The position numbers and the translations under genes are program-made. From assembly GCA_026120185.1 (NCBI GenBank), contig JANUWF010002208.1, positions 2,542,001 through 2,606,000 of the forward strand: a stretch of 64,000 nt of DNA, written 5' to 3'. Each line of letters opens with the position of its first letter. Position 1 is the stretch's first letter. The DNA is from Voacanga thouarsii (Eukaryota > Streptophyta > Magnoliopsida > Gentianales > Apocynaceae). Under the pieces are notes generated by a model. The model worked only from the letters and a program-made list of their open reading frames with translations. It made no database searches and was not told the origin of the DNA. This document shows, in pieces, positions 400 through 61,142 of the stretch.

Positions 400-1836
400 T
401 ATTGATGCACCTTATTGTGGTTATGTTGAGGACAAGTCCTCTTGTTGTGACCCTTGTTGCCACACTTCCTACATCTTCTTGTACCAAGTCATTTTTTTGA
501 TAGTTTCATAATGCCCCCACTTCTCTTGGCATGTTCACCTTGTTCCTTAATCTTTTCCTTTTTTGGTCTTTCAAGTAACTTGAGTTTTGGTGGTGCTAGA
601 ATTATTTGTTTGTCAGTTCTTGGCCAATTGTTTGGGCCATTTATAGGGTTTATAATTGGTGTATAGGCTCTTTTCAAATGCCTCACTGTTGTAACAATAA
701 TAGACAAAATCTACAAGATCCATACCAATGAAGCCAATAGTTGCAATGGCATGCACATAAGGTATTCCACTTAGCTCCCATTTCCTACAACTGTAGACCC
801 TTATTGGTAAATCCACAACAAATTGTTTAAGTGTGGAGCTATGGGTTACTTGACAAATTGACTCTCCAACAAAATAGACAGCTTATAGCCTAGAATCTTC
901 CTTTGGTTTTTCAAGTGCTTTTATGATCCTTGGACAAATTGTTGAATCCAGTTTCATTATTCAGTCCCTTTTGTTCTTTAGCCTTGTCATCATGAAAACT
1001 CTGATCCTTTCAAGCATTCCTAGAATTGGCTTTTCCCAAGCCACAATAGTCTTTGAATTAAAACTCTCACAGTGGTTGTTCAACAATACATCACACTTTA
1101 TATTACATCCAAAAAATGCCCTTGGCTAGTGCCTTGGGCTATCATCCTTAGTATGCTGTTGCCATGCTTCCTCATCAAATTTTTTAAATGACTTAAATTC
1201 TACATTAAATTTGTTATCATATATAGACTTAGAATAGTTCTATAGCCTAAGCCTCAATGCTTCACCAGGATGCTCCTTGAAATTATTATGGAGATGTTGA
1301 ACATAAAATCAATGTTCGACTCTTGGCAGCAACTCACCAACAGCAGGGACTAAGCCCTATGGAAATAAAATCACAAAGTTAAATGAACGCCAACAAAGAA
1401 GTTAGATTTTGAAATTAAAAAACACATTAAAAATTCACTTATCTTCTGCCTATTTGAAATCAAAGCCCAGTTCCCTTGATCATTAATATTGAGGTCTTGA
1501 ATTAGATTTTCTAAAAACCACTTCCAGTTTTCCTTATTCTTACAACCATTAACATAATATGCAACTGGATAGAATCCATTTTTGCATCAATACCTACTAC
1601 TGTTAATAGAATTCCTGGATGTGGACCTCTAAGAAAACACCCATCTAATCCAATAATCTTTCTACAACCTTGAAAATATCCCCTTTTAATAGCTTCAAAA
1701 TATATATATAATCTCCTAAAAATAGGTTCTGTGGTGTCTTCATCTTCAAGTGTCTCTAGAATAATTGTACTACTTGGGTTAGTGATCCTCAACTCCTCAC
1801 AATAATCTTGCAACTTTCTACACTAGTCCCAATATT
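400..1836 (-). pseudogene. MULE (Mutator-like) transposase, C-terminal half, degenerate
   Basis: This is the C-terminal half of a Mutator-like transposase, the nuclear enzyme that moves MULE DNA transposons. Read on the minus strand it shows, in order: the start of the MULE transposase domain (about 1813-1511, with the family signature IIGLDGCFLRGPHPG and VVGIDA); the middle of the domain in other frames (about 1500-1440 NWALISNRQK, 1355-1250, 1090-950 with ILGMLERIRVFMM); a SWIM zinc finger (about 810-740, SCRKWELSGIPYVHAIA, where two of the usual metal cysteines are tyrosines); and a terminal CCHC zinc knuckle (about 478-436, C-RKC-GNKGHNKRTC). Stops and frameshifts interrupt it throughout, and the damaged SWIM finger suggests it is dead. 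The N-terminal half lies some 58 kb away, beyond the CACTA insertion. The family call is secure from domain order; exon limits are approximate. Confidence 0.9.
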
Positions 1837-1866
1837 CACTACAAGAAAAAGGAATTTTCGCAACCA
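1837..1866 (+). repeat. CACTA left terminal inverted repeat
   Basis: The terminus begins CACTACAAGAAAAA and continues to AACCA at position 30. It pairs with the right end with four mismatches, at positions 15-17 and 25. The three bases before it, ATT, are the target duplication. Confidence 0.92.
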
Positions 1867-2060
1867 TATTATTTACGTCGGATGAATTTTGGTTGCAAAT
1901 GAGCACTCAATTACGCCAGAAAAAATGTCCATTGCAATTATCATGAACCTTTAATATCATGCAACGAAAATTAATAAATTACAACTGAAGTATGTGGTTG
2001 CATAAACCATCTTTATTTACAACCAAAATGATAACCTTTTGCAACAAAGAAAGTGGTGGG
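1856..2060 (+). repeat. CACTA 5' subterminal repeat zone (TTGCAAC motifs)
   Basis: About eight copies, in both orientations, of a short motif close to TTGCAAC/GTTGCAA fall within about 200 bp (for example CGCAACC, GTTGCAAATG, ATGCAACG, GTTGCATAA, TTTGCAACAAA). In CACTA elements, arrays of short subterminal repeats are the binding sites of the TNPA protein. The same motif recurs near the other end at 59.58-59.80 kb, which supports this role. The binding role here is inferred. Confidence 0.65.
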
Positions 2061-2435
2061 TATTATAATTTTGAATATTGATATTCATAATTTAATTTAA
2101 AGGACTTTTAAAAATAAGTGTTAAGAGAACTTGAAAATGAATTTATAATTAATAATTTTTATTAAGTCAATGATTTAAAAATAAATATTAATTAAGTTGT
2201 GTAATTATTCATTTATTTGTGGGGAAAAAAGAGTGCCATAAGAATATATATTAAAAAAGTTTCAAAGAAATTTTTGCACTCATAAAATGTAAAAAATTAT
2301 TAATTTTTAAAAAATGTTATTTATGAAATGTTTACACATTTGTAAAGATACTATGAAATACCCAACAATTGTATAAAAAAAAGTTCTCAATTCAATAAGT
2401 AAATAAACAAAAAAAAAAAAAACAAAAAAGAACCA
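2061..2435. other. AT-rich non-coding CACTA interior
   Basis: Very AT-rich sequence with poly-A runs (2408-2421). I see no gene, RNA or clear repeat structure. Confidence 0.4.
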
Positions 2436-2800
2436 AGAACTGGCCGTTTGCATTGAGTCGCGCCTACGGTCCGAAATCGCATTTTCCCTTGCTCGGTCAC
2501 TCTTGCGGGCCGAATCAGAGCCAGTCCCAACCTCATCCTCTTAGATTGAGGTTCAGGGCCATGCTTCAACCACCCTTGACCATGGCTACCGTTGTCTTCC
2601 AAAACCCATTCGCTTCTACAGCTTTCACTAATTTGCGGCAACTTTTTTTTTTGCGCCTTAGGTTTTTGGGGGGGGAGGGGAGGGGGGGGGGAATCGAATG
2701 TCCTAACTCCATTGTGATTCTTCTTCCCAGTACCCCTGGTGTTTACCTTTATTCTTTGGTGCTGAGTTGTTTGGCAGAGACCGGCATCTCTATTTCGAAG
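2436..2800 (+). pseudogene. GC-rich exon-like fragment, possible captured host first exon
   Basis: This block is much richer in G+C than its surroundings. A reading frame is open from 2453 to 2833 on the plus strand. An ATG at 2582 in a start context (ACCATGGCT) begins MATVVFQNPFASTAFTNLRQ, which has the Ser/Thr/Ala-rich, acid-poor look of a chloroplast transit peptide. The frame runs to AAG|GTATTTG at 2800/2801, a good splice donor, after which the base composition drops to AT-rich. A poly-G run at about 2668-2691 breaks the middle and may be an expansion. CACTA elements often carry copied gene fragments, and this looks like one, but I do not recognise the parent gene. It could instead be the 5' untranslated region and promoter of the CACTA itself. 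Confidence 0.45.
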
Positions 2801-5800
2801 GTATTTGCTTTCAACCATCTTTATTTAGTTTGATTTCTTTGTTTTGAAACTAAATGGTGTCCCCCTCTTTTTGTGTATATGATTTTTGAATTGCACCATT
2901 TGATAAGAATTTTGGTAATTTTGAGTACCTATTAGTTGAATTATGTTTGTTCGTGATATTCTTCTGCATTTAATTGGAGGCATTATAGAGGAGACTTCTT
3001 GATGTTTGCTATTTCTTTTCTCTGGCATTTCGTTTTTATGTTGATTGCAATCCCAGCACGGAGACTAGATTAAGTTTGAGCTAGATTTCACATGTTGCCA
3101 GAACTATGGCTATATTATGCAAGCACTGATACTAATTTTTGCTCTTGGAAAACAAAGCCGTAGAAATTTTTGAGGTAGGAATCAAGATCCTGAACTAATA
3201 TAGGCAAAACTTCAAAACTGAGCATTGGAGATGCTTTAAATAAATGTCCTTAGCTATATTACAAAAGCAACCAAAAAAATGTCCCTACCCATATTACAAA
3301 AGCAACCAAATAGGTGACTGAAGATGGAGTCTTGCAATTTCTCTTTTGAGAGTTTAACCTTTATGCATCCTTGATCTATTGCTATACTAATCTGGCAAAC
3401 TGGGATGGAGAATTCAAGTAGAACAGTTACAAAATTTGTTAATATACTTATCATGGAATCATTTTGTCTCATCCATTAGGTTCATATAAGATTTTAACAC
3501 ATCAAGCATCTGTAAATGTTCTTTTGCTTCTATTTTTGGGTTAAAATCTATATGTATTCTTTGAGTAAAACTCAGAAAGGTTTCAATATTACACTTAAAA
3601 TGCCAATATGCCATTTATAACTTAACCAAATGATTCATAGCTTTAATTTATGTTGAAGAAAATTGATAGACCAAACTTAAAACTCAATTATTGATGATAA
3701 GACCATAAACTGGTAGCTTTTTGTACCAAAGTGATAGAATAAATAGTTAAATATTGAAGAGAATATGCAAAGAGCTAAGCAACTTGAACAAATCCAGCTA
3801 CATCTATGATTTCTGGTAGCTGCAAATTCAGACTAGCTAGTAGATATTTTTATATTACAGTAGCCATATAATTTCATTTTCGAAACAAGGCATGTAATCA
3901 ACAACTCCATTAATCTCGTACCATCTTTGTGCATTATTATAGTACCATAAGTTCCATGTTATGCTTATTCGGGATTCATGTGGTATGCATTCTTTTTAAC
4001 TTCACTTTTTAATTGCCATTTAGTTTATTACACTATGATATTAAGCTTACATGCAAGAAATCACAAATTTTCTTGAATTAGTTCATCTATATAGTTTTTA
4101 TTGGTCATCATACTATATGTAGTTTTACATCTTAACTAAAGGGAAAACAAGTTTGGAAACTACCATCTGCTAAACAGTGTAATCCTACAAGTCTGTTTTT
4201 TGTTGCATAGCATAGATCTTTCGCATTTGGAAGGGCTTTCTATTTAAATTTTTTTTATTATTAATTAAAAGCCACTAAGAGTCCGTGGGGGATTAGGCAG
4301 GTCCCTGCCATTTGAAAGGCTTGAACATACATCTAATGGTACTTTATTGGAGCTTTGTTGCATTTATTGGATATCAATAATTGCCAATGTCCCCATGTGT
4401 TCATTCATTGTGCTATTTCTGTATCTTTGAGTAAGGCAGAGAATAAGTAACTATTTAAGCCATATCTCTTCCCATCAGCTCGTAAAAAGATAAAAAGATT
4501 ATCCTCTGCAATGACATTGAACCCTCCTTGTAGAACTAGACTAAGAGCCAAAAAATGGATTAGTAAGCATACATAGTATTCTTTATGCTTTGTGATTCAA
4601 TTTCTTCATATATCAATGCCACTTATGGAGCAATTCACTGATTCTGTTCTTTTGAATTCTGGCATTACATAGAAAGTAAAATTTTCAACTTTGCATTCAA
4701 TATTGATTTTAAATTCGTTTCTGACAGAAAAGGGTAATGGGTAGCTAATTGATCCTTAGATTACTTAATTTGAGCCTTTTTTTCATGCATCTCGTGTTTA
4801 AGATTGCAATTGAGTCCAAGAATGGATCTGAGGGTTGGGGGGTGCCTCTCTAGAATTTTCAAAACCATTTATTTCCCATAGAAAAATTAGGATTCTCCCA
4901 GAAAACTCCTTTTGAATTTACTTTTGGTCTCCTAAAATTTTTCAAAATTCATAACATTGTCCTTCACCATATTCTTTCCTTTGACTTGCCCTGCAACTCT
5001 AAGTTCTTGGTTCTATCCTTGTTTGAGTTTGCAGCATTTACTATTATCTTCTTTAGGCAACGCATGTTGGGCAAGCATCAAATATGTATGAAACTTTTAA
5101 CTTCTGATTTTAATTGTTGATGTTGTCAAAAGGATGTTGGACATGTCTCAAAAAAGTATGGATGGATGAAGTGTCCACACTTTATATACATCACAGAATG
5201 CACTTAATCAATTGAAAATAGAAAACAAAGGTTATTATATCAGTCATGTAGCCAAATAGAAAGAACCAAATTATTGTAGGAGTTCTACCATTAGGAAATG
5301 ACTCTAGTTGTTTGGCTCTTGAAGAAAAATTACCTATACATCATGTCAGAATTTTTCAATACTAAAAGAGTGCAAGTAGGTAAAATACAAGAAACCATTA
5401 ACCACTGAGTGAAAAAAATTCAGGGCTAGATGTTCTTATATGTGCTTGCATATTATTAATTAATTATCTACAACAGTAACTAAGGAGCTATTAGTTAGAA
5501 ACTATCCCCAAAAAAGACAGCATACCTCTAGGTGTTACAACGGAAGATCATATTTATGATGCATAACTCTTGCTGCAGCCACCATAAGCAATAGTTGTTT
5601 GTGATCTTCCATTTTGCAGTACCTATAATTTTAGGTTTTGCAATGAATTAATAAAAAATGCCCTCTCCCCACAAGCGAAAGGGGAAAAAACAGCATCCAG
5701 GCAAATAGACAGATTTTTGTTCCCTTTTTTTTTACACATATTCTCTCACAAACAACATTGTTACATCTTAAAATGAGTAGTATTAGTTTGGCCTCTACAA

Positions 5801-6746
5801 TAGAACTCCATACATTCACCTACACATGCATTTTATTATATTCTCTTCTCACACCAAAAGAATAGTTAAAATATCACAAACCATCACATTGCATATTCTA
5901 AGGATTGAAAAAACACCATAGGGTCAATCCTAAATAGAAGATTTAAGCATAACACTCCTAAAGCACAGAGACAATCATGAACCAATCACATAAAATTCCA
6001 GCATTTATTTCATCCCAGTTTATGAAAACTATGGCAAAAACCATATTTTTCCGTAACATTTCTCTTCTGCACAACCATATATCTATCACATGCACAATGA
6101 AAATTTCTAATGGACATATAGAACAAACTAAACAATAGTATCAACTTTATTCCAATTCATCTGCAATCCATCCGAAAATCCTTATTAATTCCAGAAGGAC
6201 CATCATTAATATAATAGAGTTGCAATCCATCCCAAAATCCTTATTATTAACCATTTCCATCCATTCTCTATCATGTTGAATAATCCATGACAAGCTAGAC
6301 AAACACCCAATCAATCTAAAAGTTCATTTTTTCTTTCAAATGTAACAATCTAACATCCATTAATGGACATTTTCCAAATTTAAACCAGGTATTGCAAATT
6401 CCCTCTAATCTATGTTAAGAACGGTAGTACAACTATGATTCGTTCTTGGCATATGCTGTCGATTTAAATTCATGATGTCCTTCAATGTGTGTTAGTGATA
6501 AATTCTGATTTAGCAACATGTTAAAATGCATAATATGCCAAAATATTCTACTCTATAAACCCATTTTCTATGATAGCTTTTAGTGAATTATTGGCAATGA
6601 GACAGTGTTTCATAAAAATTGTTTACTATTTTTTTAATTCCTGTTTTTGCGATCGAATTAGACTATGTGTTGGTTTATAACCTTAATTGAATTCTTTGTT
6701 AAGCCTTACTTACTGAGTTTTTTTGTGGCATATAAAAAACATTTAG
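2801..6746. other. Long AT-rich stretch with no supported gene
   Basis: I see no conserved protein similarity on either strand, no RNA gene and no paired LTR or inverted-repeat ends. Short open frames (for example minus 3254-3472 and minus 5631-5819) have no family signature. It may be CACTA leader sequence, introns of the captured fragment, or old unrecognised insertions. Confidence 0.4.
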
Positions 6747-7085
6747 ATGACAAGCGCAAATGGACCTGTGGACAAAAGTTGGATAGACAGTTTAAATACA
6801 TGGACACGTGAGTACATATACGGAATTGGGAGATTCTTAAATTTGTCCTATACTTCAAGACCACCTAGTTCAAAAATATGTTACCTATGTAAGAAGTGTA
6901 GAAATCATTTTTTCATGAGTAGGAATGATGTGTTGTGTCATTGCATCGTTAATGAGTTTTTGGGAGGGTATAAGAATTGGATATATCATAGAGAATCTTA
7001 CATTTCGAAAAATGCAACCGAAATTGAGGATCAAATGTTTGAAACAGAAGACCAAGATGAAATGGTAGACATGCTACTGAAGGAT
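6747..7085 (+). pseudogene. CACTA tnp2 transposase, N-terminal transposase-associated domain
   Basis: The 113-codon frame begins at ATG 6747 and carries the transposase-associated domain (PF13963 type) found at the start of CACTA tnp2 proteins. Features seen are DKSWID near residue 8, EYIYGIGRFLNLSY (about 22-35), the cysteine pair ICYLCKKCRN (about 44-53), and the FLGGYKNWIYHRESY stretch (about 71-85). The domain is intact; it is followed by an acidic tail and then cut at 7085 by the inserted copia LTR. In a complete gene the catalytic tnp2 domain (Transposase_21) would follow. It is absent here, and the next tnp2 sequence, at 10289, is already from the C-terminal part. The plus orientation agrees with all other CACTA gene pieces. 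Confidence 0.88.
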
Positions 7086-9079
7086 TGACATATACAGAGC
7101 ATGCTTCACAGGACAGTAAAAATGGAAAAACAAGAACATTAAACAGAGTATTGGCACAACATGGTAGCTTGAAAATATATCTCTTGAAGCCTTAAACTTG
7201 AAGATTGAAGAAGAACTAATTTGAACATGAAGAACAGCTTTCTTCTTCATCTGTCCATGAACACCAGTGCACTGCATTTCTTCTAGTTCCGGTTCTTTCT
7301 TCTCCTCCGGTGGAAAATGAATGCTTGGCTTTTCAGTTCTCAGAATATGACCCAGCCCAATCACAGTTGGTGAACATAGATTTGGGTGAGAAGAAGAACA
7401 GACACACACACTCTCGGTTCACCCATCTAGCTTGGCTTCTTATGATATCAAATACCAAAAGCCAGAAAACCAAGAGCCATACGGGAGAAATTTATTTTCA
7501 CTTTTCTTTTATTTTATTTTTTCCACACAGAAAGCCAAGAGTCATGAAACAAAAAATAATTATTTTGATAAAAATAATATTTTCAGGATTTAATACCCGA
7601 ATATTATTTATAAAATAAATTTTGGCTTCACCCTAAACTCTTCGAAACTGTGTCTAGAAAAATCCTATGGTCCAGGCTATTGGGCCAAACTAATATTTAT
7701 TATTTTCCTTGGACCCGAAAAGTCCAAAATAATAAACATTAATTATTTTCCTTGGGATTAAATAAATAACCCAATAAATAATTAATGAACCCAAATGAAC
7801 CAAAAAATAACTAAACTTTAATTATTTATTTCTTAGGTTTTAATTAAATAAATAACTCAATAAATAATTAAGTAATAATTATTTTTTCTCTAGTTTAAGT
7901 CCTGGTTAATTTTCTAATTATTCAAATTGGACCCAGGTCCTGAATAATCAATTATCCAATTAAACAAGATAATAAATTTCTCTCCATTTATTTTTTTCCA
8001 ATCCAATAATAAATTAGACTTCTTAAATAAAATAAAACTCTCTCAATTGAGATCATTTTCTCAATCCAAAAATTAATTAGAACTTACGGGCTATTCCGAG
8101 GACCAAAAAGACATATCGCCTTGGCTACTAAAATGACCAAAATGCCCCTACTATATTAATAGATGTATTTTACATTTTAAATGTTTCCTAATATCACCAT
8201 AAGAAAATATTAACCACAAGGATCATGCTACATTAGCAAAGTCTTCTACCTACAAGTAAAATGACTAAAATACCCCTCTACATATCGCCGTACATTTAGA
8301 GAGGAAGAAGTGTACTAACACCTCTCTAAAAGACATCTACCATCCTTAAGCTTCTAGTCCAATTATCCACGACTTCCTGGAATGTTTCCGTTTTCCAAGG
8401 GAATTACCCTAAATCAAACATCCAAGTCACGTTTCCCAGGGCCCTGGATATTTAGATCATCCGGACAACCACAAGGGGCGATATAGTGTAGAAATTATCT
8501 TGTACAAGTCTGTCTTAAGTAACTAGTCACACATACCCAACATGCAAATATATTGGCCCTCCAATAGAACCTCAACTATAGCATCTCAAAGTATATGCTT
8601 CCAGATTCGCCAGACCACCAACTCATACTCAAGTCATAGAATACTAGTCCACGCTGTAGTGGTAGTAGTCTAGGTTTCTACCATATAGTTCTTTTTAGAA
8701 ACCACTACTACAGGTCCTATTCTATGTATTCGAAATACACTTATGCCATGAAGTGAGTGGACTACTCACTAGTGAAAAGGTAAGCCATTCCCCATTTGGA
8801 ATTCATAACATAATAACCTAAATATGATGAGATTCCCATTCTCATCAATCGGTTAAGAACAACTATTTATGTGTTTAAATAACACATGATCTATACCTTA
8901 CTGTGAAAGACCTCCATTTACATAGATCACTTATTCAAACACAATGGGTCTATTCCAAACAAAAATGTGCACAACTAAAGAAAATAAATTCACAAACAAT
9001 TTTTGACAAATAAATTCTTTTATTAAAATATTCGATATTTTCATCAGAAAACTAGTCTAAGAGGGCATACATTCCAACA
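7086..9079 (-). repeat. 3' LTR of truncated Ty1-copia element
   Basis: The segment begins TGACATATACAG and ends ATTCCAACA on the plus strand. It is collinear along its length with the two LTRs of the complete copia at 31428-33431 and 39159-41168 (shared blocks around 7640, 8090, 8460 and 8640 match 31970, 32440, 32810 and 32990). At about 1994 bp it is close to their 2.0 kb. Because the pol gene beside it reads on the minus strand, this is the element's 3' LTR. Confidence 0.9.
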
Positions 9080-10270
9080 ATCTTCCACTTGCACTCTAAG
9101 ACTGGTAAGTCCGTAGGTGCCCAACCCAATGGCGTCTAAGTGTCTCTTGAAGACCCTCTGAGCCAAAGGCTTGGTGAATGGATCTACTACATTGTTCTCA
9201 GAGGCAATCTGTACTACTACCATATCTCGTCTCTGGATGAAGTCCCGGTCGTCCAGGTGGTACTACCTCATTATATGTTTCCCCTCCTTGTGGTTTCAAG
9301 GTTCCTTTGAGATACTTAAAAATATGCTTTACAGCATGCCAATGAACCTCCCCAGGGTTTGATTGATATCTGCTAACTAAGCCTACGACAAAGCAGATAT
9401 CTGGCCTAGTACACAACATAGCGTACATGAGACTTCTCACAGCCGAAGCGTAGGGAATCCTACTCATTCTGTCCTTTTCTCCTTGAGACTTAGAACAGTC
9501 CCTTAAAGAAAGTGACAACCTATGTCTACAAGGGATTAGAGCTCCCTTGCATTAGTCCATGCTGTACTTAGCCAGCATCTTGTCAATGTATGCGACTTGG
9601 GATAATCCTAACACTCTCTTCTTCCTATTTCTAAGAAGTCTAATCCGAAAATGTAGTTGGCTTCTCCCAAGTCCTTCATACTGAATTGACCAGATAGCCA
9701 AACCTTTGTCGATGACAATGTCCCTACATCATTTCCAATGAGTAGAATGTCATCCACATACAAGACAAGAAAAATCACATTAAACCCCTCAAGATTCTTG
9801 TACACGCATGGTTCATCCTCATTTTGAATAAAATCATAAGATTTTACAGTCTCATGAAAATGAATGTTCCACGCTCTCGATGTTTGCTTAAATCCATAGA
9901 TGGACTTCTTAAGCTTGCAAACCATATGTTCCTGGCCTTCAGCAATAAAACCTTCTGGTTGGGACATATAGATGCCTTCGCTAAGATGGCCATTCAAAAA
10001 TGCCGTATTGACATCCTAGTGCATGCGATGGCAAGGAGGATACGGATGGATTTAAGCATGGCCACCGGGGAAAAGGTTTCCTCATAATCGATCCATTCTT
10101 TCTGAGTATACCCTTTTTCCATAAGCCTAGCTTTGAAGGTTTCCACCTTCCCATCCACTCTCCTCTTCCTCTTGTACACCCACTTACACCCAATGGGTTT
10201 TATCCCTTCAGGTAAAGCTACAAGATCCCAAACAATACTTTGAATGTATGAATTTTTGTTCAAGATATTT
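9080..10270 (-). pseudogene. Ty1-copia pol remnant: reverse transcriptase and RNase H
   Basis: Minus-strand frames give a copia reverse transcriptase: 10263-9994 covers the N-terminal fingers region (WDLVALPEGIKPIGCKWVY, ETFSPVAMLKSIRILLA). Frame 9997-9608 has the palm, with KLKKSIYGFKQTSRAWN and the catalytic LYVDDILLIGND, then MKDLGEANYIFG. Frame 9518-9198 holds the RT-RNase H connection (YASAVRSLMYAMLCTRPDI, VSRYQSNPGEVHWHAVKHIFKYLKGT). The aspartates of the YVDD box are present, but stops and frameshifts break the chain. The upstream parts (gag, protease, integrase, 5' LTR) are gone; the sequence stops at about 10260-10270 where CACTA sequence resumes. It is a relative of the 31-41 kb copia. 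Confidence 0.9.
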
Positions 10271-10303
10271 TTAAGTTATAAAGACCCCTTGTTCAAGATA
10301 TTT
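10256..10303 (+). repeat. 15-bp direct repeat at the copia/CACTA deletion junction
   Basis: TTGTTCAAGATATTT occurs at 10256-10270 and again at 10289-10303. The first copy ends the copia remnant, and the second starts recognisable tnp2 coding sequence (CSRYLHDIETKFNR). Such short copied filler is typical of end-joining repair at a deletion. Here it marks loss of the rest of the copia together with the tnp2 catalytic region. Confidence 0.6.
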
Positions 10304-10915
10304 GCATGATATAGAAACAAAGTTCAATCGCCAGCAAAGGAATAGTGATCAACATATCATTATAGGCCGTGTTCTTGGACGAGGTGAAAGGTGCACTTTA
10401 GACTGTGCCACATGGGTCTAAGTACACAAATACATTCTGGTAAGCACAGATGTTGTTGCTCCTTATCTAGAGTAAGTATACATATATATTTTTTTATAAA
10501 AAGGAATATTTATTTTAAAAAGATTTTCACGTCACCTTAAATTTTTGTTTAAAATTCTGCACAGCGTACACTTGTCTAAATTAGCCAAGGAATATCCTTG
10601 TGCTGGGAGAAATTATATACAAAAAGTTCATAAATGACACATTCTATGAATGGCTCAAGAATTATGTAAGCATTTTGAGATTAAATTTCAAGAACTCTTA
10701 TTTTAATTATTTATTAATGTTTAGTTTAAAAGCATCATAACTTCTGTCTTGCATTACTTATAAATATTAGATTGTGGACTTGCAAAACACGCTAGATATC
10801 AAATAGATGAACATATTAAAATTCTTGTAAGAGGGCCACATCCAAATGCTAAAAGACACAAAGCATGTATTGTCAATGGTTTTCGATTCCATACTAAGGC
10901 CCATGAGGCAGCAAG
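10289..10915 (+). pseudogene. CACTA tnp2 transposase, C-terminal part 1 (interrupted)
   Basis: Plus-strand exons match the tnp2 C-terminal region. Exon-like block 10289-10471 encodes CSRYLHDIETKFNR followed by GRVLGRGERCTLDCATWV, a TAA stop, then HKYILVSTDVVAPYL, ending at a donor (A|GTAAGT). Block 10565-10665 encodes HLSKLAKEYPCAGRNYIQKV and, after a 1-nt insertion, DTFYEWLKNY. Block about 10771-10915 encodes LAKHARYQIDEHIKILVRGP and the signature IVNGFRFHTKAHEAAS. It is cut at 10915 by the solo LTR and resumes at 18442. The stop, the frameshift and the missing catalytic domain make it non-functional. The exact phase at the third block's acceptor is unclear. Confidence 0.87.
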
Positions 10916-12163: not shown

Positions 12164-12184
12164 TAAACTAGCTTGATGGGTTAA
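12164..12184 (+). repeat. LINE target-site duplication, left copy (21 bp)
   Basis: The 21 bases 12164-12184 recur exactly at 15424-15444, on the two sides of the RTE LINE. This is the length expected for target-primed reverse transcription. Uninterrupted relatives of this LTR (for example around 26428 and 52268) have one similar copy at the same place. Confidence 0.9.
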
Positions 12185-46060: not shown

Positions 46061-46064
46061 AGGG

Positions 46065-46659: not shown

Positions 46660-46672
46660 GGCTCTGATACTA
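46660..46672 (-). promoter_or_regulatory. Chromovirus primer-binding site
   Basis: The sense strand reads AGTATCAGAGC just after the LTR end (GTTACA), a one-base variant of the initiator-methionine-tRNA site TGGTATCAGAGC. Confidence 0.75.

Positions 46673-49316: not shown

Positions 49317-49320
<4 letters not shown>

Positions 49321-49371
<51 letters not shown>
49321..49371 (+). repeat. (GA)n microsatellite in solo LTR
   Basis: About 25 GA units. The same place in the other LTR copies has only short GA tracts, so this one has expanded. Confidence 0.95.
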
Positions 49372-49375
<4 letters not shown>

Positions 49376-50961
49376 GAGTTCATTAGCATATACTCATCAA
49401 GGTCGAAGATGGAAGAAGATGAAGATGATTGTTAATACTTACCTTGAAGGTGTTCTTGAGCCTTCAAGAAAATTCTGATTTTTGATCCAAAAGTGAGACT
49501 TCGATTTTGGTGTTTGATATTAAAAATTGCAGAAGTGGATTCAAGGGGTTGAGTATGTGTAATTTGGAGTTTTTGGAGAAGATTGGAGTGGTTTTAGGCG
49601 TGATGGGGTTAGTAGGTGTTCTTGGTGTGGAGAGAATGGAGAGAAAATGGAGAGGGCTGGCCGAAATTCTATGTAGGAAGGAGTGGCCAACTAATTTTAA
49701 GGGTTTAGGAAGTTGAATTTTCTGATTTGAGAGGAAAAGGAAAGCTGGTTGTTTGAATTCCTAAAAGAATATTTTAGGGAATCAATTTTAGAAACAAATA
49801 TGGTAAGAAGATCCTGATTAATGGAGAGTTTTAGGAAGCTTCAATGGCTAACTGAATTTCTGTGATTTTTGCTAAGATGAATGATGTTTGAATAAGCTTT
49901 AGAGTGGCTGAAAATATGGTGCACAATGGTGAAGGAATTTTCTGGTTGTTTGAGGGTTAATCTATGGAAGGTTGCTGGAAAATTTTGCTGAAATTTTGGA
50001 CCTCAATGAATGGCTTGATTGGGGTGATTGATGGAGAGATTTTAGGAGCAGCCATGGTGTTGTTTTTCATATAGAAAAATGAAGGAGATGTTGGAGCTCA
50101 GTTCATGGCTATTCAAGGTGAGTTTGCATAGAAAAATAGAGTAAGTTTCGGATAAGGGTGAAGAAGGAACAAGCTGGAATTTCTATTCAGGATTTTCACA
50201 GGCTGGCTGGAATTTCTAGGCAGATTTTTCTGCCATATTTCAGTCAGCTTGCAGAAGGTTTGAAGGGCCATTGGAAGGTCCTTTAAGGCTGGTTTTCAGC
50301 CTTCTTTATGGAGGAAAAATAAGGCTACATTGCTGGTTGAAAGTTGGAAGAAACAGCTTGGTTTTTGGGCTCTCCAAACTGCGAAACTGCCCAGGAAATT
50401 TTCCTGGTTTGCACAGCCTTTGGCAGTCCGGTTTTGAGTTGAAATTTTCAATCTTCAAGCTAAGTGAAATGGTCATTTTTCTGGTAGCATTTGAGAGGGA
50501 ATATTGGCTGAAAATTTCGACAATTGGACTGGTCAATAAGCTGGAAAAATTTCCAGTTTACTACATGAAGAAGATGAACACAACTATTTTAGAGTTTTGA
50601 AGGTTCAACCATAGAGATTTATTCTCTTAGGAACCTTCCATAACTCTTCCTCAATTTCGGTCAAGAATATATCCATGCATAGCCATTTTCGAAACCTAAA
50701 TATCACAGATCCTTGCTGGAATTTTCTAGAAACAAAATTGGCTTGGATAAATTGAACATCCTAATTGATTAAAAATTAAAGAAAGTAAGAGATCAAGAAG
50801 GGTAGGAATCCCTTAGAAATTTTTGTAGGGCACAAGAGTGGAATTGGAACATTCCTATCATGTCTCTCCTAGAACAACATTCCCACTCCTTCTTAAAGCA
50901 TACAAGGGCCGAAATATACCCTTCCCAAACAAAAATAAAAATTTAATCATGCTAAACTCCA

Positions 50962-51026
50962 ATGATGGAATTTGAACCCAAGACCTTAAGAATTAATTCC
51001 AAAGCTCTAACCACTAAACCACAACA
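50962..51026 (-). promoter_or_regulatory. tRNA-like segment in nested solo LTR
   Basis: The minus strand reads TGGTTTAGTGGTTAGAGC and, downstream, GGGTTCAAATTCC. This copy has the best B box of the five. It is the counterpart of 18131-18197. Confidence 0.58.
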
Positions 51027-51438
51027 ACTCTTGTTCTTATTTCTTTTCCCAAATATTTTTTCTATTTGATCCTCAAGCTATCTCCATATTTTTACCTTAA
51101 GCAAAAATTACCAGTCTACCCTTCTTACTCAATAAACCCAATTAAGCCTTCTAGACTATAAATCACATATCTAAAAATCATACAAAAATGCATTTATGCA
51201 TGCAAGAAAATATGATATACATCCCAACCCCCTTACTCTAAGGTTGGTTTCAACTGGGATTTCACAGTTCATGTATGCAAGTTTTGAACAAATCATAATA
51301 AAAGGTCTGCTAATCCAGATATTTATCTTTGAACACAGAGTGGTGTTTTATCAGTAGTTGTAAAGTAAAAATGCTCAACTTGAAAAGAAATAACCACCCT
51401 AATAAAGTTGACTATGAAGTCATGCATTATGAATGGAC

Positions 51439-51549
51439 ATGGCACCACACTTTGTGCACCATGTTAAGAGAACGGTCAGGATGCCACATTTTGTATATCA
51501 TGATAAGAGAATGATCAGGATGCCACACTTTGTGCATGCTGATACAAGG
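51439..51549 (+). repeat. Tandem repeat of about 39 bp inside the LTR
   Basis: Units of 42, 39 and 30 (partial) bases each begin ATGGC/ATGCCACA. It is homologous to the array at 25600-25710. Confidence 0.75.
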
Positions 51550-54500
51550 TGGGTGTACGGCCCACCGGGTAGATACTCCTCCATCTCTACACCCAAACAT
51601 ATTGGGTGTCCACTCCGAAAATAAACAGTCCACCTGAACTATACTGCTAGCTCGGACAGGCCTAACCAATAAGAACTGTCATCTTGTCTAGGTAGGGTTC
51701 ACCCTTTAGAGGTGGCCTCCTACTAAGAGACTTACCCAACCCTTCAAAGATTAGTCCTAGTAATCTACCATTATTGAGTACTCAACATTATGCTTTTTCC
51801 ACTTGGAAAATGTAAAATCAATGAAGAGTTTTCTTTGAAGTAGCAATTATGGTTTCAAACAACTTTAGGAAAAATATTATTTAAGGAAAATTTATTGTTT
51901 TGCTCGGAAAATTGTTTGCTTAACAAAAATTATTTTATTTTAGAAGAAGGAATATGTTGTCCATAATTGCATCTCAAGGTACATCTTCCACAACAATCAG
52001 TGCATTCGACTTGCAGAAAAGCATTTGTTCACAAACATCTTTATGCAAGGATTTACCTGATCTCTTGCTTTTCTTTGATACAATAGCCTTCCAAGATAGT
52101 TCAAGGCACCCTAATCCCACTTGGGGTAAATACAAGGTATAAAACTAACATCCAGACAATACTTGCCTTAAATAAATAATTCTTTGGTCAACTAGCCACA
52201 ATAATCTCTAATCATGGCAGCAATGCCTTAGGCTTTAATACTAGTTGATAAAGTATTTTATAAAATAAACTAACTTGATGAGTTAAAATAAATGGGTGTT
52301 ATAAAATAAATAATAATAAGTTATAGTTTCAAATAATAAATTATGAGTATTATTGCTAATAAATAAACTAGTGTTAAATATTGAATAATACTAACTCCTA
52401 AATAATATTGGTAAATGGTAATATTTAAATAGTATTATTATTATAAATAATAAATTGCACTTTAATTTTTAATTAATAATTAATAGATAACAAATAGCCA
52501 ATAAAATTAATAGTAAACGAATTATACTTAATTTTTAATTATTGAATGATAAATAAATTTTAATATAAATAATATTTATGGATATAGATAAAAGTTTTAG
52601 TAAGGCCAATTAATATGGTCTACAAGGTCATTTGATTTAATTAATTCCAATATTTTATTATTTGTTTTTAGTCAAAAGAATTTTATTTACTTAACTAATA
52701 AAATAATATTTTAAATAATACTCTATTTCAAACCTACCTATTGTTTTCGAATTTTATAGATTAAATTGAATATTAATTCTAATTAAATTAATAACAATAA
52801 TGTTAGCAAAATAATTCTAGAATTAATAGAAAATAGTTTTTTCAATAATTTTCTATTGTTAGAGAAAATCTATGAACATATTCTCACATAACATATTAAT
52901 CCATCCATGAACATCCACTTGAATCAACATATACTAACACATGGATAATCTCCTTCTAGGCATAATCATCATCTATAGCTTTATTGGAAATAAGAACATA
53001 AAGGCCTAATCACCAATGGTGTCATAATATCTAACATGCATCAAAACATTCATAAATCCCTTTAATCATGATGAGCATATATTGATTCAAAAGAAAAATC
53101 CATAAGGCCTAATCTTACATTCCAACTGTCATGTCCTAACTCCATCCCCTTCACCCACATATATATACTCAACTCCTACTTTATTTAATCATCCTATCAA
53201 CATCTAGGAGTCTTGATTCTAAAAATTAAAAAGGAAGATTTAAGGAAAAATACTTGATGGATGATCGCTTGATGAAGGATTTTCCTTGGTTAGTGAAGAT
53301 CCTCACGAGCTTGATGGCTTTTTAGTAGTTCGGGAGTAGCCATGGTTGATCATCACCATTTTGGCCAAGAGAGAGAGTGTGTGTGTGTGAAAGAGATGAA
53401 TGAGACTAGAAAGAATATTAGAGGTTGAGTAGAAGAGGAAAAACAAGGAGGTTGTTCTTATTTTACCTTTTGGTGTTCTTGGAACCTTCAACAAAAAGGG
53501 TTGGTTTTGATCCGTTTGGAAATTCTACTTTGCGTGAGTCAACATTATAAAGGCTAGAAATGAAGATTATAGGTTGAATATGGATGACTTATAGTGTTTG
53601 GGAGTGATTGGAGGTGTTTAGGATTGGTTTAGGCTTGAAGATGAGAAGTGTATGTTCTTGGTGGTTTTTGAGAGAGTTTGAGAGAAAACTGATTTCGAGA
53701 GTTGCTAGAATTGTGATGGCCGAATGGCCTAGTGTAGAAGGGAGTTTTGGATATCAAGAATGAGAGAGAAGATTTTCAATTTTTTTTGAAATTCAAATGA
53801 AGAAAAAGGTGGAGTTGTTTTAGGTATAAGATTAGTTAATGGAGTTTGTTCATGGAAGGTCTCTTACTCTTTAGTGGTGTATGGCTAAACTATCTAGGCT
53901 TTATTTGAAGAATGAGGGGTTGTTCAGTACATAAGGCTAGCTGAAAATGGTTTATAATAGCAGAGGATTTTTTGGTTTAATCACTTAGCTATAGGTATGT
54001 TTTAATGGAACAAAATCTGAAATTTAGTTTGAAGTTTGAATAAGTTTTGGATAGAGTAATCTTATGAACTTTTTAAGGTATGATCATGGAGTCCAACATT
54101 CAAGGTTGGTGTGGTGGCCAAAATTTTCAGTCCATGGAGAACAAGGTTTGAATTTCAATGGCAATTGATGAAGAATTTCGGTCTTAGCCTTGAAAAGACA
54201 AGTTGAAAAATTTTTGGAATTTAAGCTTCAAGAACACTTGGAGTTGGAATGATTTTGGTGTAGAATTTTCTGTTCTCTTTGGCATGATTTTGCAGCTGGA
54301 TTCTAATGGTGTTTGAATGTCTTTTAATGGTGGTTTTCCAGCCTTCAACTTGAAGAAAAATAGAGGAAGTTCTAGTTGTTCTTATGCTCTAACGGTGGCT
54401 TCAAATTCCCTATTTAATGCTGAAACAAAATTCTAGTTTTAGGATGTTTGTATAGACCGAAAATTCACTGAATTTCCAGCCTTTAACCTTGCATAAAATG

Positions 54501-54986
54501 TCAGTTTTACTTGAAAAAATTGGGTAGGAAAGTTGGCTAAAACTTTCGAAAACAGCCCTACAAGAAATCTGGAAAATTTTCCAGATTTTTCTTTACCAAA
54601 AACATGAACAAGATGAACATGGAATTTGAAGGAATAGCTATGGTGTTTTCTTTTCCTTGGAATCCCTACCTAATTCTCCTCCCTATTTTCGGCCATCCCT
54701 ATCCCACAAGAGCTGATTTTTGAATTCTAATGCTAGGGATTTATCACAAAAGTTTTATGAAAAAAAATAGATTAATGAATTAAGAATAATTTAAATTTCA
54801 AAGATGTTAGGACAAGGCTAGCAAAAATTAAAGGGGACAAGAATTCTTCTAGATTCTTTTTTGGACAAGATCACGTGGTCAAGATATTACCATCATGTCT
54901 CCCTTAAGACAACATTTCTATCTTTAAGAAATGTAAGAAAATCGAAAATTCAAACATAGTTAAGATAATTATGAATAAAACTTAAG

Positions 54987-55050
54987 TGATGGATTTGAAC
55001 TCAAAACCTTAGAGATTAAATCTCAAAGCTCTAACCACTTAACCACATTA
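54987..55050 (-). promoter_or_regulatory. tRNA-like segment in chromovirus 5' LTR
   Basis: The minus strand reads TGGTTAAGTGGTTAGAGC, then GAGTTCAAATCC. It is the counterpart of 43129-43193 in the other LTR of the same element. Confidence 0.55.
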
Positions 55051-55295
55051 AATCTTGTTCTTATTTTCTCAACCAAATATTCTTCTTATCTAAACTTTAA
55101 GCCATCTTCCTATTTTGACCTCAAGCAAAATTACCTTTTTACCCTTTCTACCCAACAAGCATAAATAAACCATTTAACCTATAAACCATAATTCTAAGAT
55201 ATGCAAAATCATTCAAAAAGTATATTTTATGCATGATGACATGATATGCATTCCATCCCTCTTACTCTAGGGTTAGCTTTAGGTGGGGTTTCACA

Positions 55296-55492
55296 CTAGA
55301 CGTGGCTCCGAATATTTTCCTGGTTGTCGTTTACCACTTCTACATTCTGACATAGTGATTATTTTGTGTAATAAGTTTCCAAAATTTCTAAATTTCATTA
55401 AATAGAATAATAAAAAGAAATTCTAATTTTGAAAATAAGTGATTATGTAAACCTATAATTGATTTAGGTTCCCAAATTTCTAATTTTCCAAA
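55296..55492. other. CACTA interior between LTR element and eEF1A fragment
   Basis: This continues the sequence broken at 25089. It is AT-rich, with no gene seen. Confidence 0.4.
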
Positions 55493-55585
55493 ACTATTGT
55501 TGTTGGTGTTATTAAGAATGTTGAGAAGAAGGATCCTACTGGTGCCAAGGTTACTAAGGCTGGTGCAAAGAAAGGTGCCAAATGA
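55493..55585 (+). pseudogene. Captured fragment of translation elongation factor eEF1A (C-terminus)
   Basis: Thirty codons and a TGA stop encode [20 protein letters not shown] followed by [10 protein letters not shown]. This is the C-terminal tail of plant eEF1A (the GTPase that brings aminoacyl-tRNA to the ribosome), whose ending in known proteins is very close to [28 protein letters not shown]. Similarity stops abruptly upstream of the Thr codon, where the sequence is AT-rich and non-coding, so the fragment lacks all three folded domains and cannot work as a factor. The frame and natural stop are intact, which suggests a fairly recent copy. It lies inside the CACTA element about 1.1 kb before TNPA-like gene 2, on the same strand. 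The parent gene is presumably elsewhere in this genome. Confidence 0.88.
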
Positions 55586-56701
55586 ACCGTGCTGGTTCAT
55601 TCTAGGATTACTTCTGACGAGGTATACTATTAAAATAAATCTTGTCATGAAAATTGCCTCCTTTTGAGAACTACTGTCATTGTTTGGCCTTTATTCTATC
55701 TGTGGTGTTGTAGGTTTTTGCCTTATAAGTTTGGCATCCTTTCCCAAAATTGGGTACTTGATCAGCGGTGGCAGATCCTACAATAATAGTCTTTGTTATG
55801 TAATGTTTTGAGTCCTGTGCATTGAGGTGCTTTGGTTTTTCCTGGCAGCTCAAAAGTTTTGTTGTTTGATGTTATGCTCATTCTATATAATTATTGAACT
55901 TATTTTACGAATTTCCTTTGCATTTATTTCTCCTCCATTTTTCGTTTAAATTATTGTGGACAGTACCATGGATGAGTTGGGCTTTGTTCAGTCCTAATTT
56001 ACCTTCACCTAGTGTTGTTCTTGAATTGGCAGTCTTGTTTCCTGTAGCTTGTGCCCCAAGAAATTCCCCAAGTGGGCGCAATTCATGAAAGTTTGAATAG
56101 GAAATATGTTCCTCTGTGTTCTGACCATATAAGTGAGTTTTACTTGCATGTAAGATTGTGATATTGAGATCTAATAGAGAATGCGTTCCTCCTTATTCCT
56201 TCTGTGTTCTCTTTACCAATAGTCAATCCCATATAAGCAGACTGACTCATCAGTATAATTGATTTTACTTCTATTGTGAGGGTTGGTTGAAGCAATTTTG
56301 CTTTCCTTGTACAAATCTGGATTTGTCTCTGCCAAGTGAAGAAATAAGCTTTTCAATACAATTACCAAATATTAGTTTACTTAGTTTGTACAATTAACAA
56401 AATTGAACTGGCCCTCTTTGTCAGCTTCCTGTTTCAATGTTTTGTCTGACTGCTAGTAACACAATAGCACGATTAAGCTTGAAATCTTGATCAATTCACT
56501 ACAAATTTTATTCATCAGACTTGTGAGCATGAGTTGATCTTGTGTTATATAGGTAATCTCAGTATCTTGTAGCCAACAAAATGTAAGTTCAAAATTTTTA
56601 CTAGTTTAAATATATTATTTTATTTTTGCTTATTTTTAAATCAAAATAGATTTGTTAATTTATTCTAACAATTAATTATTCATTTAAAGAATTTTTATAT
56701 A
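55586..56701 (+). other. Probable eEF1A 3' untranslated sequence, then unassigned CACTA DNA
   Basis: Sequence after the eEF1A stop has an apparent intron (GAG|GTATAC at about 55620 to TTGTAG at about 55711) and then a T/G-rich tail to about 55880, which looks like a host 3' untranslated region carried along. A 64-codon frame at 55894-56088 has no recognised family. From about 56100 to the TNPA-like gene I see nothing specific. Confidence 0.45.
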
Positions 56702-58548
56702 AGAAAACGTCAAAGAGATTGTGATATCACTAGTCAAGGAGTAATTGCATCAGACACGAATGAATTAAATACTTCACATTTCGATAGTGATGAGACTCAA
56801 CCACCTAGTGATGGAGAATTCACTAATACCCAACCACAAGCTGAAATCACTAGTGAAGTTTATGGTGATGTGGAGGTCAGAGGTACAAAATATTGTATTA
56901 TCTTGACAAATTAATATTTTCTATCAAATTTATTTTTTCATTTTACAGATGAGCAATTGATTGTAATGAAACATGAAGAAGTTATACGAGCCAAAGGTGT
57001 ATGGAAATTGCCCGATAATCACAGGATTGTGGTTCATTTTAATGAGTTAGGATAACCAATTAAAAAGGGCGGTGGAATTTTGGGTGGATGGTTGGGTAAT
57101 GTTGCAATGAAAAAAGAGTACTGTTCAATTGAATGGTCGAATAGGAGGAAAATGCCTATGATTGATAAGGAAAATTTGATGAAATTGACTAAGGTATTAA
57201 GTTTATTTGGTTTTATTTTTGTAAAAATTTTTATAAACTTCTTATTTGTTTTCACTTTGTATTCTTAATATTTTTATAGAAATACTTTGATATCCCTGAT
57301 CACGTTGAAGTACAAAAGTGGGTGCTCCAATCAATTGCACGCAAGTGGAAGGATTTCAAATTTGATTTAAAACATAAGTATTTCTCGTCTTAGAAGACTC
57401 CAGAAGAAATAGAGAATTTAGTTCTAGATGATGTTTTTTTCAAATCAATGGAAGATTCTTGTGCAATATTGGTTCTCAGAGAAAGCTCAGGTAACATGAA
57501 ATATTACCTTATAAATTAATTCTAATTATATTTTTAAAAAATTAATTTTTGCCTAAGTTTTCTGTTACAATTCAAAAGTTTTTTCGATATCTATAATTTG
57601 GTCAGAATCTTTCAAAAAAGGGTAAAGCAGCATGAGGTTATCACAAAACACATCACACTAGTGGATCAAAGAGTTTTGCACGAGGAAGACATGAATATGT
57701 GAGTTCAAATTTAAATTTACTACGTTTAGTACTTTTCTATGCAATTCCTACATAAATTTTAGTGACTTTTATGCATTTCTAATAGTTTCTAAATTTTTTA
57801 ATGTATTTTATAACAGGAGATGAATCATGGAAAAAAGCCAAAGGCAGATTGAGTTTTACAAAATTAGTCACACGAGAAAGGATGAAAAATTCATAAACGA
57901 TCAGTCCAAAGCTATTATGGTAGTTTTCTTTTGCATTATTTAAACTAAAATTTTAGTTGTATCTTGTTTCAAGAAATTTAAGGTTACTACTATTTTTTAA
58001 TTTTTTACTATAATATAGGAGAACGTAACAAATATTGCTGTAGAACGTTCTGCAACACATAAAGATTCAAATGGCAATATAATAAAGGATGAAGTACTCA
58101 ATGAAGTTTTGGGAGAATATCAATACGATCGAGATAGAGGATATGGATTATGAGCTACTCCTTCACAAATTTTTGGACCAAACTCTAAACCAAAAGATAG
58201 AAAACAACATGAGGTTGAAATTTTCCAAAAAGAAATACATGACATGAATGTAAGTTATGAGACGATGATTGCAAACATGAAGGAAGAGTATGAAAGGAAT
58301 ATTACAGACATACAAAATGATTATGAAAAGAAGATTGATGATCTCAAAAAAGAGTTAAACAGTATGTGCAGTGATGTATCCAATTTTAGAATATTATTTT
58401 CAAATGTGAGTTACTATCACATGGTCATTATGTTTACTATTTCTACGTAAATGATTCATGCCACTTAAATGTTATGGCATGCATTTAATTTTTCAGGCTG
58501 GTCATAGTTTTAGTATGTCTAAATTTACATCTACACAAGGTTGAGTTT
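56702..58548 (+). pseudogene. TNPA-like CACTA gene no. 2 (Transposase_24 family), multi-exon
   Basis: Exons with good splice sites encode a PF03004-type protein. The first visible exon, about 56702-56881 (KRQRDCDITSQGVIASDTNE, acidic), is followed by 56949-57194 (KLPDNHRIVVHFNELG, one stop, GGWLGNVAMKKEYCSIEW, MPMIDKENLMKLTK) and 57280-57490 (KYFDIPDHVEVQKWVLQSIA, RKWKDFKFDLKHKYF; then, after a frameshift, WKILVQYWFSEKAQ). Next come 57605-57700 (HHTSGSKSFARGRHEY, the family core motif), 57817-57919 (QIEFYKISHTRKDEKFINDQ) and 58020-about 58404 (EVLGEYQYDRDRGYGL, then a coiled-coil of heptad-like MKEEYERNITDIQNDYEKKI). A short last exon follows at 58498. Three or four nonsense codons and one frameshift disable it. 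It is better preserved than gene 1 and differs from it in sequence. The role in the family is binding subterminal repeats together with TNPD. Confidence 0.85.
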
Positions 58549-58969
58549 ATGTAAGTATTTTATTTAGTCAAATTATTTTAGCTGTATTTATTTCATTGAA
58601 TTTTGTAAAACTATTATTTTTATGTGCATAAAATGTTTTCATTATTTTGAATATTTACCATTTGATTTGTTTTGATTTGTAGGGACATTAAAATATAAAA
58701 AGCAATGATTTGTAAATATTCATCCACTTTGAAGATGCGAAGAGATATTTCTAGTTGAGAATTAGTTGAATAATTTGTAATCAAATATTAGTTTGCTTGG
58801 TTTTTATACGGATATTTGAATTATATATATTTTGAATATTTAAAATTTATATGGATATTTGAATTATATATTTTTTGAATATTTAAATTATGTTTCATAT
58901 TTTATTCTTTCTAAAATTTGAAAAAGTAATTGGACAACCTTAAAAATATTTTTAAAAAATAAGAAAACA
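58549..58969. other. AT-rich spacer after TNPA-like gene 2
   Basis: Non-coding, with duplicated ATATGGATATTTGAATTATATAT stretches near 58805-58880 that may be a local tandem duplication of about 54 bp. No gene. Confidence 0.4.
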
Positions 58970-59834
58970 AAAATGGTAAAAAATTTATGGAGAAATCGTG
59001 TACCAAAAAATGTCACAATAGAAAGCATATGTCGTAAATTTTGGGACATTGAAAAAAGTGATGCTAAATTCTGGGACAATATAGTACAATTAGTGTTGTT
59101 AAAAAGGGACGCAATCATACTTACACATCGTTACTTTGGGACATTTTTCTGGGATGTTATTGATTATTTTGTCGGTACGAAAGGGACAGAAATAGAATTA
59201 CATATCGTCATTCTAAGGACATTTATGTAAAGAAAGTGTTGCCAAATTTGAGATGCTACACAATCATAGTGTAGCTAAAAAGGGGACTCAGACGTAATTT
59301 TATGTTGGAAATTTGGAGACGTTTATACAAAACGTGTCGTGAAAAAAAAAATCTATATAAAACATATTAGTAAATTAGGCGACAGTAACAAACATAAGCA
59401 TCGTAATATTAGGTACACTTCTATAATAAGCATCAGAAATTATGTGTCGTAAAATTGTGAAATGCATGGAAGTAGGGACACATTTAAAAGTGATGAGAAT
59501 TAATTAAATATTTATTTTAAGATAAAAATAAAATTAAAATTAAATATTTGCAATGAACAATAATTGTATTTTCGATTAAAAAAAACCTATTTGCAACGGC
59601 CATGCAACGGGAAAAGAACCATTGTATTTAGTTTGGATATATTTGAGGCTTCTTGCAACAAAAAAAAGTGTTGTAAAAAGATGTATTTTTCATGGAAAAT
59701 AGATCATTGCGACGGTGCATACGGTTGCAAAGGCAATTGCAACCTCCTGCAATAGCAATGAGCATTTTCCCATTGCAATGCCTTTACAATTGATTATTTA
59801 TGACCAAATCGATCCTTTTTCTCATGAAATTCAG
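58970..59834 (+). repeat. CACTA 3' subterminal repeat zone
   Basis: From about 59040 to 59480 some ten copies of a GGGAC(A/G) motif occur at intervals of roughly 20-90 bp (TGGGACATT, TGGGACAAT, AGGGACGCA, TGGGACATT, AGGGACAGA, GGGGACTCA, AGGGACACA). From about 59580 to 59790 copies of TTGCAAC/GTTGCAA follow, matching the 5' subterminal motif. Such arrays are TNPA-binding regions in characterised CACTA elements; binding here is inferred. Confidence 0.6.
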
Positions 59835-59864
59835 TGGTTACGAAAATCTATTTTTCTTGTAGTG
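59835..59864 (-). repeat. CACTA right terminal inverted repeat
   Basis: The plus strand ends TTTTTCTTGTAGTG. It pairs with the left end at 26 of 30 positions. The ATT at 59865-59867 is the target duplication. Confidence 0.92.
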
Positions 59865-61142
59865 ATTTCCCCTCTATCATCAACCGTGTAGCTCCCTTTG
59901 CTTTGTCAACAACATTCCTAGTTATGTTTACAATTGAGTTCCTTATAAATCTTGTCTTGAAATTTTCTAGCATCAAATGGTTTATTTGATTTAAAATAAG
60001 GTAGTTCATTGCAAGACATTTATGAGATGCTCACATGTGATAAAAGGTTCTTCCACACTTGTGCTTCTCTTATAGTGTCTTAATTTGAAATGAAGCAATA
60101 GTTGAAATTTTTTCTACGTACAACAACCGATTATAGTTTGCTCCCCCACAAACTGCCATATTCCTCTTGTTATCATTCTTTACAAACTTCATGGGCCTTC
60201 CCTATTTGATTGCATGTTGTACAATTATAGCCTTCAGTTCACTCTTTGTGCTGAAAATGAGTCCAAGCTTGAATTCTGGATCATTTAATCCTTGCACATG
60301 TATATACTTGTCAAATTTCCTCCTTTTTACTCCTACATCTCTTTCATCTTTCTCACTACTACTATCAGTGTTGTATTCCTCATCTGTATCCATGGAGTCT
60401 TCACTTTCCTCCCCTGCATTCATATCCTCCCCTGGAAAAAGGTCCATTTCATCAGTATTATCAATTTAAATACTGCCTCCTTTTTGTAGGGCCACTACTG
60501 CTTGGGCCGTTTTGTATTACTATAAGTTTAGTTCTCAATTCTGTTTGCATTACTGCATTATCCATATCATCAGCAGCTAACCACCCATCTCTTGTTGGCT
60601 CATTATTCTGTTGCAACATGCTCTCAGAAGGACCATTATGATCACCAGGTGACTAAGAAATATTGTCTTCATACCCTGGATCAAATCCCTTTAGTCCCAT
60701 GTCAACATAGTTATCCCACGCACTGCTATCATTCTCACTAAGTGGATATTCTTCATCCATGAAAAGATCATCAAACATTTTATCTCTCTGTAGCTGTTGC
60801 ATATGATCATTATCGGATGGTGATTCCTACACACAAAATTCTCATTCAAAGTTATCTGAATAATGCACTAAAACTGCTACAAAAAATCCAATATAAACAA
60901 CTAGCTAAATGTACACAAATAAATCTTGTTTTCACCTAAATTGAAACTCGGCTTACCTCAATGACCTTTTTTTGTCCCGTTGAAAATATAATTGGTGTCC
61001 TCTTGGATCTTGCACCACTGCCAACCTCAGTAGTCCCAGTTGGATCTCGTGTCCCATGATTTTTGGAACTTTCAAGAGCATAAGCAGAAACATCTACTGC
61101 TTTTTTTTCTTTTTCCCCTTGAACATCAGCAGCATTCATCAT
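59865..61142 (-). pseudogene. MULE (Mutator-like) transposase, N-terminal half, degenerate
   Basis: The minus strand encodes the start of a Mutator-like transposase. From 61142 down to about 60950 is a low-complexity, variable N-terminal segment (SGARSKRTPIIFSTGQKKVI). At about 60840-60660 lies an acidic stretch (FDDLFMDEEYPLSENDSSAW). At 60447-60202 comes the conserved opening of the DBD_Tnp_Mut domain (GLNDPEFKLGLIFSTKSELK), then after a TAG, GRPMKFVKNDNKRNMAV, ASFQIKTL and a run ending VNITRNVVDKAKGATRLMIE at the CACTA boundary. The frame at the boundary continues into the C-terminal half at 1836. Several stops show it is dead. Sequence right to about 61500 may also belong to it. Confidence 0.85.

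Follow-up and report, generated by a model that had tools for sequence, protein, structure and literature searches.

The window analysed here, a stretch of 64,000 nucleotides from Voacanga thouarsii that forms part of contig C1103, carries a CACTA (En/Spm) transposon with nested insertions at positions 1837–59864 (plus strand), a span of 58,028 bp. The insertion of this CACTA, with both of its ends and the duplicated target site, is confirmed, and it is almost certain that the element landed in a Mutator-like (MULE-like) transposase relic, duplicating ATT, and that retrotransposons then nested within it. A sequence-only reading had described the locus as a 58-kb CACTA inside a MULE transposase gene. 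The CACTA insertion with its ATT stands, whereas only about 20 kb of the 58-kb span is CACTA DNA, the other approximately 38 kb being made up of at least six nested insertions.

Terminal inverted repeats beginning with CACTA delimit the element: the plus strand from 1837 and the minus strand from 59864 both read CACTACAAGAAAAA, of which the window has no other exact copy. The first 30 bases of the two ends agree at 26 positions, and no other inverted match to the left end within the window exceeds 20 of 30. When up to three mismatches to the terminus were allowed and a CACTA start was required, one other match appeared in the window, at 60077 within the MULE flank. Directly outside the termini, ATT is found at 1834–1836 and again at 59865–59867, as expected of a 3-bp target site duplication, and a single ATT occupies the corresponding place in the empty site described below. 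The outer 250 bases on the left and 350 on the right also contain subterminal repeats, the words TTGCAA and TGCAAC being approximately 22–32-fold enriched over the window mean; these were chosen as the most enriched words and counted on both strands, without a shuffle control. The terminus scan bore out the matching ends and flanking ATT noted in the sequence-only reading, and no rival terminus that could partner either end was found in the window.

A search of the genome (1.35 Gb in 1848 contigs) for an empty MULE site, as had been proposed with that reading, identified one on contig C1821 (locus L009), where the halves are joined by a single ATT. At L009 position 3874 the match to the left flank, which extends to 1836 (88.6 % identity, 254 columns), adjoins the match to the right flank, which starts at 59866 (87.1 %, 907 columns). 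When the two flanks are joined around one ATT, the resulting 1154 bases align to L009 in a single block; indels are small and lie elsewhere, the closest being one extra C in L009 a few bases from the site. Genome-wide, a 300-base left-flank query, ending by design at the insertion point, gave 30 matches, of which besides itself only the one on C1821 was close (89 %), the rest lying at 66–77 %; a 1000-base right-flank query matched nowhere except in the window and, as two pieces, on C1821. Similarity between window and C1821 extends beyond the site in both directions, broken by insertions private to each copy, and amounts to a Kimura two-parameter (K2P) distance of 0.129 over 3266 sites. The C1821 sequence is therefore a diverged copy of the interrupted sequence and not an allele. 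The empty site supports the order proposed earlier, with the MULE first and the CACTA second. How the two copies themselves arose may involve MULE transposition or segmental duplication: no convincing inverted repeat was found between the ends of the region common to both when MULE terminal repeats were sought, and on C1821 the left edge of this region adjoins an apparent LTR (long terminal repeat) end. Further insertions without counterpart in the other MULE-like copy lie at 61559–63183 in the window and at 2081–3621 and 4756–6091 in L009.

The interrupted sequence runs on the minus strand. Its C-terminal half lies in the left flank (12–1836), is colinear with the C1821 copy at 86–89 % and matches MULE relatives in tblastn; its N-terminal half, recognised by comparison with C1821, lies in the right flank (59865–61558), and further matching pieces of the relic are found at 63184–63704 and, beyond the window, at 64367–64581. 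Minus-strand reading across the join gives RLMIEGK-YWD-TAG-CRKLQDYCEEL, in agreement with the earlier claim that the halves outside the two ends share a strand and join in frame with one TAG. A single open frame in the relative L005, 172 residues long, covers the sequence on either side of the join: residues 34–55 of the window's right piece match its residues 103–124 (E 4.5e-5) and residues 1–36 of the left piece its residues 129–164 (E 8.3e-12), both E-values being calculated against that protein alone. As both pieces match one L005 frame, this frame spans the join, and an origin of the two pieces from different families is contradicted by their presence together in the one copy on C1821. 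The label MULE for the interrupted sequence rests on L005, whose next frame contains PF10551 MULE (E 1.3e-14), while the 172-residue frame itself gave a weak DBD_Tnp_Mut match under the cut-off (E 0.026). In tblastn, left-half pieces matched all six of the relatives L003–L008 and right-half pieces four of them. At the place of the window's TAG, L005 encodes Leu, and the TAG is also present in L009; since window and L009 share it, the MULE-like frame was probably already broken before the CACTA landed, although a parallel TAG change in both copies may have occurred. What had been called a MULE transposase gene is hence MULE-like sequence, as claimed, though probably a decayed relic and not an intact gene.

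The boundaries of the CACTA coincide with those of its siblings elsewhere in the genome. Of 181 first-look candidates for the left end, 40 were scored, and those besides the window lie at 85–92 % identity; for the right end, 40 of 186 were scored and all match, 39 besides the window at 82–87 %. Left-end similarity starts at 1830 to 1837 in 13 of 13 sibling loci examined, 12 of them beginning with CACTA and one with CATTA, and right-end similarity stops at 59864 to 59867 in 11 of 11. Among the 40 + 40 scored places, both ends occur in the proper order, at most 150 kb apart, on three other contigs: C957 with a span of 30,409 bp and an imperfect duplication (GGA/GAA), C1810 with 31,926 bp and GAG/GAG, and C822 (584574–654161) with 69,588 bp and TTT/TTT, so the span in the window is not the longest observed. 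At a further locus, L035, the left end is retained for its first 636 bases, and no more than about 15 bp beyond them similarity to the right end sets in (window 58269 onward); the arrangement resembles that of a small, internally deleted member of this CACTA family, whose right terminus lies outside the retrieved sequence.

Self-comparison of the window revealed many internal repeats of 67–94 % identity. Tandem gene duplicates were considered and this reading was dropped, as the repeat edges are TG...CA LTR ends with target duplications. Six nested insertions can be delimited, each with its own target duplication, two of them imperfect. Coding domains were sought by running Pfam on 37 of the 73 open pieces of at least 80 residues in the window (33 of the 64 within the CACTA) and on some shorter ones. 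Solo LTR 'a' (10916–18441, duplication GCAAG) measures 4.29 kb without the LINE (long interspersed nuclear element) inside it, which spans 12185–15423 on the plus strand, encodes RVT_1 (E 1.7e-23) and is flanked by the 21-bp duplication TAAACTAGCTTGATGGGTTAA, read by eye. A long-LTR retroelement (25090–55295, minus strand, duplication CTGGA/CTAGA) has LTRs of about 4.37 kb at 25090–43437 and 46675–55295, each with nested insertions, around an internal part at 43438–46674. From the form of its LTRs and a primer-site-like sequence beside 46675, we presume it to be gypsy-type; the two pieces scanned at the internal part (46004–46537 and 46545–46817) showed no coding domain. Its left LTR contains solo LTR 'b' (28289–42256, duplication GCCAA/ACCAA), which in turn contains a copia element (31428–41168, minus strand, duplication CAAGG) with LTRs at 31428–33431 and 39159–41168 and with copia gag, Pol and RVT_2 domains. 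Its right LTR contains solo LTR 'c' (47016–51266, duplication GTTCA). Arithmetically, subtraction of the two outer insertions with their duplications leaves approximately 20.3 kb, including 3.2 kb at 7078–10288.

The siblings also allow the insertions to be ordered. Searches with the two sides of solo LTR 'a' gave lists of 40 and 41 rows with 32 places common to both, one being the window itself with a 7.3-kb gap between the two side matches. In all 31 other places the LTR is absent and the two sides overlap by 2–11 bp; in 24 places the overlap is exactly 5 bp, as long as the duplication of this LTR. From the second list, nine of 41 rows lacked a partner in the first and do not enter this pairing count. 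Two unpaired rows represent one place, C544:3163163–3163801, where a match to the same LTR lies about 115 bp from the landing point of solo LTR 'a' and is possibly an independent insertion. The long-LTR element is absent from sibling L068 (C544:3900634), in which the sequence continues from window position 25091 straight to 55306; C1810 was tried as a second empty site, and its stretch matching 55300 onward failed to align on the left. When a query composed in equal parts of CACTA and LTR sequence was searched, 40 of 4070 first-look candidates were scored, and these match the LTR half, except for the window itself and one on C544. Divergence declines with nesting, from the K2P distance between the MULE copies (0.129) over that of the CACTA from the C544 sibling (0.079 and 0.086) and that of the LTR pair of the long-LTR element (0.066) down to the copia LTR pair (0.058). 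These values fit an order in which landing preceded growth but do not prove it, because the siblings diverged before they could report on the window copy.

From these observations, the CACTA almost certainly entered the MULE-like relic by cut-and-paste and duplicated ATT. Solo LTR 'a' and the LINE, the latter inside the former, inserted into the CACTA, as did the long-LTR element, which then received one solo LTR in each of its LTRs; the copia element followed into solo LTR 'b'. After landing, the span would thereby have grown from approximately 20 kb to 58 kb.

The most serious rival to this sequence of events holds that the CACTA already contained its retrotransposons and moved as a 58-kb element. 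Sibling spans of 30.4, 31.9 and 69.6 kb do exist, and an older retroelement remnant at approximately 21522–23851 (repeat pair 21522–21975/23226–23851, with Integrase_H2C2 on the minus strand, E 6.5e-7) is shared with the C544 sibling, which points to a family able to copy with inserts aboard. In L068 this remnant is shared (about 3025–5358) at approximately 89 %, and it was apparently carried along during transposition. Against such a passage of the whole nest, solo LTR 'a' occurs in none of the 31 paired siblings, the long-LTR element does not occur in L068, and the divergences of both LTR pairs fall below that from the C544 sibling, making this rival very improbable. With solo LTR 'a' and the long-LTR element absent from comparable siblings, nothing suggests movement at 58 kb, and the earlier view of the span as one composite transposon was not borne out. 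We likewise give very little credence to the broader proposition that the CACTA family still mobilises retrotransposon-laden elements of tens of kilobases, and that the copies of 58 and 70 kb transposed when already about as large as today. That the two ends derive from different CACTA copies, paired by chance or by an assembly join, might be entertained for a family as abundant as its 181 left-end and 186 right-end candidates indicate, but it is scarcely credible given the identical ATT duplications, the lack of another terminus in the window and, as strong evidence, the flanks being contiguous in L009 at exactly the insertion point.

Several observations nevertheless weigh against a CACTA landing in a MULE-like relic and growing afterwards. 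The empty site is paralogous, with 12 % divergence, and not allelic. Pfam detected no MULE domain in the short open pieces of the window, and the right piece adjoining the site (59866–60030) had no tblastn match in L003–L008 at E 1e-3. The target duplications of the long-LTR element and of solo LTR 'b' each agree at only four of five bases, and L068 is the one sibling comparable on both sides of the long-LTR insertion site. As the remnant at 21522–23851 is common to the C544 sibling, not every insert is private to the window copy. The LTR-pair distances, 0.066 and 0.058, are not clearly separated, the raw differences having standard errors of 0.004 and 0.005, and another sibling, on C657, is more distant (K2P 0.170 over 620 sites).

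The 3.2-kb segment at 7078–10288 occupies the position of the transposase core in sibling L069. The N-terminal part of the CACTA transposase gene, with Transpos_assoc (PF13963, E 2.1e-15), is located at 6747–7085 on the plus strand, after which the alignment to sibling L069 leaps from window 7077 (L069 4757) to 10289 (L069 6870). L069 encodes Transposase_21 (E 2.1e-69) in its stretch 4758–6869, which has no DNA match in the window, and none of the window pieces scanned matched Transposase_21. The segment instead holds a truncated copia piece (7592–10233) with RVT_2 on the minus strand (E 2.4e-33) and a DNA match to 31939–34931. Judged by its sequence, the window CACTA is a family copy without the transposase core, and because the segment encoding this core has no match here, the copy should be unable to make its own transposase. 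The part of the transposase gene ahead of the DUF4216 region (10289–10915, plus strand) runs directly into 18442 in siblings L053, L055, L056 and L060. The CACTA DNA that follows (18442–25089, plus strand; 21164–25091 at 89 % to L068) includes the DUF4216 part (18598–18777, E 7.3e-12), a weak Transposase_24 trace (20561–20866, E 8.7e-4, 19.9 bits against a cut-off of 28.7) and the older remnant. The right part of the element (55296–59864, plus strand), which includes the subterminal repeat region, is 91 % identical to the C1810 sibling at 56396–57825. At 57056–58400 we assume, by eye only, a second-gene-like coding trace; Pfam gave no family for 57056–57265 and only weak coiled-coil-like matches for 58154–58447. 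A second CACTA nested inside was considered for the two Transposase_24-like traces (the weak one at 20.6 kb and that seen by eye at about 57 kb), and no further terminus was found.

Jozin from Chenopodium (PMC8978399) and the radish RsMYB1 CACTA, an element of 7372 bp with the terminal repeat CACTACAAGAAAA (PMC7210773), share the terminal sequence and the 3-bp duplication with the window CACTA. PMC8978399 lists TAD, Transposase_21, DUF4218 and DUF4216 as CACTA domains, with Transposase_24 in some elements. As in known CACTAs, sibling L069 has the order Transpos_assoc, Transposase_21, DUF4216. The window copy gives only a weak, below-cut-off match to Transposase_24 and differs from the known elements in having no Transposase_21 core and in being interrupted by other elements. 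Regarding size, the wheat chromosome 3B study (PMC4290129) gives CACTAs of up to 30 kb, and a study on a red alga mentions enlarged CACTA families of 16–20 kb (PMC6431247). The former also reports 30,199 nested insertions with up to eight layers and 320 clusters exceeding 100 kb. Measured against the wheat data, the nest in the window is likewise layered and can be ordered from the outside in, with no difference in kind, and it falls short of the largest published nests in both size and depth. It is a well-supported case of ordinary plant genome layering.

The locus serves as a worked example in which an empty site elsewhere in this genome ties together CACTA ends 58 kb apart, and the layer order agrees with the divergences. 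This adds support to an existing view: in large plant genomes, CACTA copies are broken up further than automatic annotation can reassemble; the authors of the wheat study put the sensitivity of their own pipeline for nested CACTAs at 13 % (PMC4290129).

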